Positions 1 through 6,679 of a stretch of 37,317 nt of DNA are shown here, one piece after another. Location of the stretch: positions 1-37,317 of the forward strand of contig JAJZOL010000188.1 in the NCBI GenBank assembly GCA_021811565.1, in the 5' to 3' direction. Made by a program: the position numbers and the translations under genes. The notes beneath the pieces are model-generated. The model saw only the letters and a program-made list of their open reading frames with translations. It searched no databases and was not told the DNA's origin. Position 1 is the stretch's first letter; each line of letters opens with the position of its first letter. The stretch comes from a bacterium (lineage in GTDB: Bacteria > Armatimonadota > Chthonomonadetes > Chthonomonadales > CAJBBX01).

Positions 1-601
1 CCGATGTGAGGTTGGACGGGGTGTAGCCGTAAATTGGATTAGTGAAGAAAGGGAACATCTCATCTCGTATGATCCTTGTATCGGAGGGGTCCATGAAAGA
101 GGCATCCGTCACAATTCGGTTGGATGTGTAATCCGTCTCGAAACTTGATCCGGCGTTTTGAGTGGATTCCCCTGCGATGATGGAAAAGCTGCCCGAATCG
201 AAGCGATAACTTGATCCGTAGCATTGCCAGTAACTTGTCGTGCCGGGGCATCCTCCGTCCGACGACACCTGTGCTGGACCGCCGGTGTCGTCAGGGCATC
301 GGAAAATATCCTTGTTTTTTCCATAAGGCAGGATCTCAAGCTCCACCCCCTTGTGTCCCGGCTGACCTGCGGGCGGATTAACATCGTAAGCGTAAAATAT
401 GGGCATCACTTCGTCATAGTCCTGCACATACATTCTCGTCTGCATGCCTATCTGCCTTCCGTTGGAGATGCATGTGATCTCCCGCGCCTTCTCCCGCGCC
501 TGGGCGAATACGGGGAATAGAATTGCAGCGAGAATCGAAATAATCGCAATTACCACGAGCAATTCAATCAATGTAAAGGCGTTCGCCTTTTTTTCGGACA
601 T
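1..601 (-). CDS. Prepilin-type N-terminal cleavage/methylation domain protein (DUF1559-like / type II secretion pseudopilin), truncated by the left window edge
   Basis: Reverse complement from 601 reads MSEKKANAFTLIELLVVIAIISILAAILFPVFAQAREKAREITCISNGRQIGMQTRMYVQDYDEVMP...; canonical FTLIELLVVIAIISILAAILFPVFAQAREKAR prepilin signature; RBS-like AAAGGATGG upstream. Absent from the ORF track because it is open at the window edge. Confidence 0.95.
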   Translation of the reverse strand, partial: MSEKKANAFTLIELLVVIAIISILAAILFPVFAQAREKAREITCISNGRQIGMQTRMYVQDYDEVMPIFYAYDVNPPAGQPGHKGVELEILPYGKNKDIFRCPDDTGGPAQVSSDGGCPGTTSYWQCYGSSYRFDSGSFSIIAGESTQNAGSSFETDYTSNRIVTDASFMDPSDTRIIRDEMFPFFTNPIYGYTPSNLTS

Positions 602-662
602 TTAAACCATCCTTTCGTTCAAGTCGGGAACGAGGGAAGGATGCGCCACTGAGATTACGCAT

Positions 663-703
663 AAAAAAAGCCGCAACCTTCGGTGGGAGCTGAAAGTAGC
701 GGC
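663..703 (-). terminator. Intrinsic terminator forming the expression platform of the TPP riboswitch
   Basis: Minus strand GCCGCTACTTTC-AGCTCCCACC-GAAGGTTGCGGC followed by TTTTTTT: stem with one mismatch plus a U-tract, between aptamer and start codon. Confidence 0.8.
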
Positions 704-723
704 GTAACAAGTCTTCGTACTTG

Positions 724-814
724 TTCGCTTCCCTCCGTCGGCATTACCCGTATCAGGTGTAAGGGGTTCTCCGAAATTCGGAATCTCAGCCAGCCTTAAA
801 GCCAGCACCCCCAG
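724..814 (-). promoter_or_regulatory. TPP riboswitch (THI element)
   Basis: Minus strand TCGCTGGGGGTGCTGGCTTTAAGGCTGGCTGAGATTCCGAATTTCGGAGAACCCCTTACACCTGATACGGGTAATGCCGACGGAGGGAAGCGA contains the conserved GGGGTGC, GGCTGAGA, ACCC, ACCTGAT, GGGTAATGCC and GGAGGGAA blocks; P1 closes as TCGCT/AGCGA. Confidence 0.96.
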
Positions 815-1062
815 CGATATCATTTATTATATCTTACGAAACAATCATCCTGCAAGTGACCTCCGCGGTTGCATTTTTTTTGATGCTCTGTCTCAGACGG
901 CAATTTACCGCATCGAGTGTAATTGCGAAACTATATGGAAACGGTTTGCGAAGTGCATTTTACGCTTAATCATACTCCGTAGATCGAATCATGCAATTCT
1001 CTGAAGGCATACATTCTCTCTTAGATATGTATTAGGCTGCGGATTTCAATGAACCTGAGTAA

Positions 1063-5596: not shown

Positions 5597-6679
5597 TCAT
5601 TTCGGAATATTCAGATAATTTCCATACCCAATAATCACGGTGGATGATACAAGTACCGCCAAGCCAAGCGCGATCAGCCAGTGAGTTCGTTTGCTGGTAC
5701 CCTTCCACTCCTTGAGAGCTATTCCCCACAACATACTGAAGATCATGATGCTTGCCATATGCAAGGTCCAACTAGAGAATGAGTAGCTACCCATTTTGCT
5801 TTGACCCATGGTGTAGAAGAAGAACTGAAGATACCATGTTATCCCTGCCATTGCCGAGAAGAGATAGTTGTTGGCAATGAGCGAGGCTCCTTCCTTTTGC
5901 CCATCTACGACGCCAAGGTATTCCCGACCGGAGCGATTTTTAATGTTAAGCGCGGCGCACCAAACGAAATTGGTTACAAAACCGCCAAGCAGAACGGGTA
6001 TCAGAACCGGCAAGCCCTGCCAAATTGCAGACCTTCCATGGTGTTGCAGAATGTTCACGGCGTAATCGTTAATCGGTTTACCCGCATCCAGTCCAAAAGC
6101 CATGCAGGAACTCATGATGCCGGAAAAGGTGGCGATCGCCATGCCCTTGCCAAAATGGAATTCCGTGATCGTACTCTGTTTCTGCTCCGTGGTTAGCTCA
6201 CGCTCCTTGGACATGCCCGCCATTCCACTGACGCCAATGCCTATCACGCTCGCAAATACGCCAAGCAGGATGAATTTGCCTGATAGGGTCGAGAAAATAC
6301 CTGAAAGCTGCCCGTGAAAGATAGGCGGGATCATAGTACCGAATACCGCCGTGTAGCCTAGAGCGACCGCCATTCCCAAGGCGATGCCAAGGTATCTCAT
6401 CGTCAATCCGAATGTCAGGCCTCCCACGCCCCACAACATCCCGAACAGAAACGCCCAAAAGAGGACATGTATGGGTGTGTGAGCTAGTATGGACCAAACT
6501 CCCGGTACTAAAAGCGAAGCCATGAGTGCGGGCATGATGATCCAACTGAAAAAGCCGCCGGCAAGCCAGTATGTTTCCCACGACCAACGTCTGACCTGCT
6601 TGTATGGAATATAAAAGCTGGCGGCTGCGAGTCCTCCCGTCCAATGCAAAAGGACTCCGAGGAATGGGTTAGGTGTCAA
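5597..6679 (-). CDS. rhaT: L-rhamnose/proton symporter family protein (RhaT-like)
   Basis: 360-aa multi-TM protein MTPNPFLGVLLHWTGGLAAASFYIPYKQVRRWSWETYWLAGGFFSWIIMP..., recognisable RhaT N-terminus; rhamnosidase nearby. Confidence 0.88.
   Translation of the reverse strand: MTPNPFLGVLLHWTGGLAAASFYIPYKQVRRWSWETYWLAGGFFSWIIMPALMASLLVPGVWSILAHTPIHVLFWAFLFGMLWGVGGLTFGLTMRYLGIALGMAVALGYTAVFGTMIPPIFHGQLSGIFSTLSGKFILLGVFASVIGIGVSGMAGMSKERELTTEQKQSTITEFHFGKGMAIATFSGIMSSCMAFGLDAGKPINDYAVNILQHHGRSAIWQGLPVLIPVLLGGFVTNFVWCAALNIKNRSGREYLGVVDGQKEGASLIANNYLFSAMAGITWYLQFFFYTMGQSKMGSYSFSSWTLHMASIMIFSMLWGIALKEWKGTSKRTHWLIALGLAVLVSSTVIIGYGNYLNIPK

Follow-up and report, generated by a model that had tools for sequence, protein, structure and literature searches.

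The left end of the window, by which we mean the whole 37,317-nucleotide stretch analysed here (the entire contig C246 of genome G000, the window's own genome), raises the question of why a TPP riboswitch should stand directly before a prepilin gene. A sequence-only reading of this DNA had placed a TPP aptamer at 724–814 and an intrinsic terminator at 663–703, both on the minus strand, with a prepilin gene as the next feature. It offered two explanations: either a pseudopilin-like protein is under thiamin control, possibly as the first gene of a thiamin-uptake operon running off the left edge, or the riboswitch was orphaned by rearrangement. The features of the region are listed here in the order of transcription.

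826–855, minus strand: likely sigma-70-type promoter, read from the sequence (−10 TATAAT at 831–826, weak −35 TTGCAG at 855–850, spacer 18)
713–822, minus strand: TPP riboswitch aptamer, RF00059, full length (cmscan, 75.6 bits)
663–703, minus strand: intrinsic terminator in the expression platform, with an antiterminator as the alternative fold (folds of −55.0 versus −55.1 kcal/mol; core z = −3.3)
610–615, minus strand: Shine-Dalgarno AAAGGA, 8 nt before the prepilin ATG, likewise read by eye
18–601, minus strand: prepilin-type gene (H-X9-DG/DUF1559-like; PF07963, TIGR02532), N-terminal 194 codons of 252, the rest on G000:C231
1–23, no strand assigned: assembly artefact, an inverted thiN snippet (G000:C231 1043–1021; blastn) whose codons are not of the gene

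A covariance search with RF00059 recovers the aptamer well over the gathering threshold of 54.3 bits (E 2e-15). The match covers model positions 1–105, the conserved cores CUGAGA and ACCUGAU/GGUAAU align to the model, and there is no other Rfam match anywhere in the window. The terminator (GCCGC...GCGGC-TTTTTTT) is confirmed too, with a core of −14.7 kcal/mol whose z-score is measured against shuffled sequences, and the ATG that follows AAAGGA, at 601 on the minus strand, makes the prepilin gene the next feature, so all three elements of the sequence-only reading stand. Computed folding of the leader (aptamer through T-run) is bistable: in the antiterminator state the 3' half of the aptamer pairs with the terminator loop region. 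This is how a TPP-repressed transcriptional switch should be expected to look. A hairpin with a T-rich tract is also present in about half of the 36 relatives examined. The TATAAT just upstream of the aptamer plausibly belongs to a sigma-70-type promoter, which is missing from the list of the consensus scan because its −35 element matches too few bases.

The prepilin gene of the window is truncated by the contig end. Its C-terminus lies on contig C231 of the same genome, which overlaps the window over 250 bp at 99.6%. The first 17–23 or so bases of the window are the inverted piece of thiN, and this chimera probably prevented the assembly from joining the contig to C231; the last codons that the window shows (...TPSNLTS) were accordingly rejected as real protein. 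On C231 the prepilin is followed by a thiamin pyrophosphokinase gene, thiN (match 561–1148), and then by a sodium:solute symporter gene (1187–2617). The operon is uninterrupted in G001, a genome of the same genus, and the order in both genomes is TPP riboswitch, prepilin, thiN, ThiV-like sodium symporter. Extension to the left therefore supports the suggested thiamin-uptake operon, with the prepilin as its first gene. The thiN product scores 141 bits against the TIGR01378 equivalog (NCBIfam; cut-off 76.4) and the symporter 93.9 bits against PF00474 (SSF, Pfam), its putative specificity for thiamin being read from its context with thiN. Between G000 and G001 the prepilin differs by 48 synonymous and 3 nonsynonymous changes, and this dN/dS of 0.014 indicates strong purifying selection. 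A second TPP riboswitch of the window's genome (G000:C45:1641-1737) precedes the genes for hydroxyethylthiazole kinase (thiM) and thiE, so this genome has two separate thiamin regulons.

The protein is a prepilin by its N-terminus, where a prepilin peptidase site and hydrophobic helix match PF07963 (N_methyl) at 33.5 bits and TIGR02532 at 28.9 bits. The DUF1559 half of its original label holds only loosely: against PF07596 (gathering 23.3) the window protein scores 20.2 bits and its sister is also below threshold (20.2–21.9 for the two), and the ortholog in G033 scores 40.2. The H-X9-DG motif of the full-length protein, H202 to D212-G213, is nearly invariant in alignment A1, which also shows the soluble domain to be highly conserved among orthologs. 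The core motifs YGSSYRF, RDEMxPWF and QWHxRGG..DGHAKF are specific to the clade. An AlphaFold model made with 51 orthologs (pLDDT 92.4; a first model from a shallower alignment reached 78) predicts a 51-residue pilin helix (13–63) and a compact mixed domain, within which the H-X9-DG segment lies. In the PDB, Foldseek matched the pilin helix of both models and nothing in the soluble domain, so no binding pocket can be inferred by homology.

Far from being absent from every relative, the arrangement recurs throughout the phylum. Orthologs of the prepilin are found in 136 of 291 Armatimonadota genomes at 208–461 bits, the next class, paralogs, reaching at most 177. All 136 genomes have a TPP riboswitch directly upstream on the same strand; counted per match, 141 of 142 are linked, 137 of them within 250 nt (median 74). 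Profile A1 was built from 34 of these genomes, and the other 102 form an independent test in which relatives are not statistically independent. The linkage spans about a dozen families. It is also selective, for the genomes examined hold about 50–60 prepilins each, and there profile A1 gives the riboswitch-linked prepilin 430–444 bits and the next prepilin at most 157; only one of about 55 paralogs is ever the TPP-linked one. Around other prepilins, 75 control loci (509 kb), drawn both from these genomes and from further phyla, yielded no riboswitch at Rfam thresholds, some of these loci being unrelated prepilins drawn from a profile scan of genome contigs and matched via the universal N-terminus. 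Regulation of the prepilin by the riboswitch is thus strongly supported by comparative sequence evidence, and of the two original explanations it is thiamin control of a pseudopilin-like protein that the operon in G000 and G001 and the linkage bear out.

In the tree, the TPP-linked prepilins form a 54-row clade (support 99/99) and a 6-row clade (100/99), both apart from the paralogs. The 6-row clade is a second group of prepilins behind a TPP riboswitch, seen in families f17, f41 and f43 (L074, L084, L260, L255, L267, L256). In f43 its prepilin again stands before thiN and the symporter, and G274 and G275 show the four-part order with this clade. As a side reading, this second clade may reflect independent recruitment or replacement of the prepilin.

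The genes behind the prepilin vary. With gene calls in GC-rich relatives based on motifs and tblastn, the full riboswitch-prepilin-thiN-symporter order was seen unbroken in most genomes of f1 and f2, in many of f3 and in G094 and G237. In f14, f28, f6 and f30 the prepilin stands under its riboswitch without adjoining thiN or symporter, and almost all of these genomes have no TPP riboswitch other than the one that precedes the prepilin. In such split operons thiN and the symporter, when both are found, are usually paired elsewhere (for example G177:C11:272771-274809, G103:C2:143311-145453 and G216:C4:37039-39071), and the riboswitch stays with the prepilin, not with the pair. Many genomes of f3 and f14 do not have thiN and the symporter side by side, and no close symporter homolog was found in some f14 genomes; the partner of the prepilin is therefore not always the same.

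ThiC is absent from 46 of the 52 genomes tested and TPK is present in 51 (48 over the cut-off). In Fimbriimonas ginsengisoli (G116, name inferred) the only TPP riboswitch precedes this prepilin ortholog, and strain Gsoil 348 is reported to lack thiamin biosynthesis completely except for TPK (OP10G_4820), to have envelope genes of the diderm type and to encode 79 PulG-like genes (PMC4072686). Strict auxotrophy was considered as an explanation and rejected: five prepilin-bearing genomes also carry ThiC, so it is not required, and both the window's own genome and Chthonomonas calidirosea have thiC. G003, of the window's family, lacks the prepilin and has thiC behind the riboswitch instead. In G001 an in-frame TGA and a change of frame interrupt ThiC (G001:C10:72979-74218), possibly a pseudogene or a sequencing error; in the window's genome thiC is long and open.

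A second vitamin shows a similar pattern. We searched 14 of the ortholog-bearing genomes for cobalamin riboswitches and obtained 15 matches, of which 11 (nine over the cut-off, two below) have a prepilin of a different clade 11–226 nt downstream. These cobalamin-linked prepilins form one clade (support 96/67). Three of the loci, each a cobalamin riboswitch before this second distinct prepilin clade, are given here; there are eight more.

G000:C138:16419-16570 (L281): cobalamin riboswitch, window's own genome
G015:C1:2136329-2136480 (L272): cobalamin riboswitch
G001:C44:5219-5368 (L273): cobalamin riboswitch

Downstream of this prepilin, G094 encodes a BtuF-like protein plus CobU, G008 has BtuF-like proteins, and G001 has CobA and CobU. 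In two or three cases the prepilin thus clearly heads B12-salvage genes; at several other loci no B12 gene was recognised after the prepilin. Three of the remaining four matches precede BtuF-like or ribonucleotide-reductase-like genes, as judged by eye from translations. A separate prepilin clade under cobalamin riboswitches thus appears to do for B12 what the TPP-linked clade would do for thiamin.

We propose that a thiamin-salvage operon has its 5' end at the left end of the window and encodes a prepilin-like protein, ThiN and a ThiV-like sodium:solute symporter. With enough TPP in the cytoplasm, the aptamer would bind it, the terminator would form and the operon would be off; when TPP is scarce, the antiterminator would let transcription run into the prepilin gene first. 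This OFF polarity is deduced from the terminator platform and established riboswitch biology. The hydrophobic N-terminal helix of the prepilin would either anchor it in the inner membrane or be built into a type IV pilus or pseudopilus, and the clade-unique soluble domain would most likely bind thiamin or a thiamin phosphate and carry it as far as the envelope, or across it, to the symporter; ThiN would then make TPP. From gene context we infer that the prepilin takes part in thiamin acquisition and, a step further, that it captures a ligand. On balance we consider it probable that this is a salvage operon with a dedicated prepilin-like protein that captures thiamin, that the B12 loci are its analogue, and that both encode vitamin-repressed, vitamin-specific capture proteins.

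How the protein would work is less constrained; it may act on the surface as a filament, shuttle as a retractable carrier or stay anchored in the membrane as a periplasmic binder. Because the B12 operons already encode a BtuF-like protein, and because no TonB receptor plug domain was found in 20 of the 42 genomes searched, the window's own included, a role before the inner-membrane step is suggested. The boldest form of the proposal, that vitamin-specific, riboswitch-controlled pilin-like proteins on a type IV- or type II-like machine capture B1 and B12 outside the cell and move them across the outer membrane, standing in for TonB-dependent receptors, strikes us as rather unlikely. Such replacement is not general, since one or more TonB-dependent receptors occur in about half of the genomes.

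About as unlikely, in our estimate, is that the prepilin binds thiamin in the periplasm while anchored in the inner membrane, passes it to the symporter, forms no filament and never reaches the surface. It would account for the place of the prepilin beside the symporter in the core operon and for the high conservation of the soluble domain, and a prepilin N-terminus can serve as a simple membrane anchor. However, sodium symporters normally work without a binding protein, and the B12 operons of G094 and G008 already have a gene for a BtuF-like binding protein immediately downstream of the prepilin, which would make the prepilin redundant there in this role.

More doubtful still is an adhesin or pilus subunit made during vitamin starvation, by which the cell would attach to vitamin-producing neighbours or particles with no vitamin bound. 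The absence of ThiC from most of the ortholog genomes tested fits such a role, as does the interpretation of the F. ginsengisoli fimbriae as attachment organs (PMC4072686). Adhesins usually diversify, whereas dN/dS here is very low, and the TPP-linked and cobalamin-linked prepilins have separate, deeply conserved soluble domains, which suggests ligand specificity. An orphaned riboswitch with the prepilin as an incidental neighbour, conceivable because prepilins are so abundant in these genomes, has a negligible chance of being right against unbroken linkage over about a dozen families, the singling out of one paralog, control loci free of riboswitches, purifying selection and split operons that keep the riboswitch with the prepilin.

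The favoured reading, thiamin capture by a dedicated prepilin-like protein, can be set beside several known systems. With TPP riboswitch (RF00059) salvage and transport operons the locus shares a canonical aptamer, a terminator platform and downstream thiN and transporter genes; here, however, a prepilin comes first and in many genomes is apparently the sole gene under control. A ThiV-type sodium:solute symporter under a TPP riboswitch is known in SAR11 (PMC11452348), and the symporter here is of the same superfamily in the same kind of operon, but it is paired with a thiamin pyrophosphokinase and preceded by a prepilin. That pairing points to thiamin, not the pyrimidine HMP, as substrate. Like other H-X9-DG/DUF1559 (PF07596) prepilin-like proteins of Armatimonadota, Planctomycetes and Verrucomicrobia, the protein has an N-terminal methylation motif, a helix and a C-terminal H-X9-DG; it differs in belonging to one orthologous clade with its own conserved core that is always TPP-riboswitch-linked in the genomes analysed. 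BtuB-type TonB-dependent receptors are likewise vitamin-repressed uptake components, controlled by cobalamin riboswitches, yet they are beta-barrels, unlike the pilin-like helix and small domain seen here.

Among 5.39 million open papers, a set with few subscription journals, we found no paper that connects this prepilin with a TPP or cobalamin riboswitch and none containing both "riboswitch" and "Armatimonad"; the single co-mention of TPP riboswitch and prepilin is a pneumococcal competence study (PMC6560143). The linkage ties a well-understood sensor to a protein superfamily whose dozens of copies per genome are unexplained, and gives a functional handle on an H-X9-DG prepilin, since the regulation itself names the likely substrate. 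Together the two vitamins suggest that Armatimonadota use dedicated pilin-like proteins for vitamin capture. Recurrence with B12 in a different clade makes "one pilin-like protein per vitamin" directly testable, and cultivated species are at hand in C. calidirosea, F. ginsengisoli and probably Capsulimonas. If prepilins do carry vitamins through the outer membrane, this would be a new principle of nutrient uptake.

Two further observations concern other loci. A Verrucomicrobia contig with a prepilin-like gene contains a MISL RNA (RF03079, 602.7 bits) at L128:7210-7963. Within the window, positions 5597–6679 of the minus strand hold an open reading frame that resembles a sugar-proton symporter (RhaT-like by eye) and is unrelated to the riboswitch-prepilin finding.
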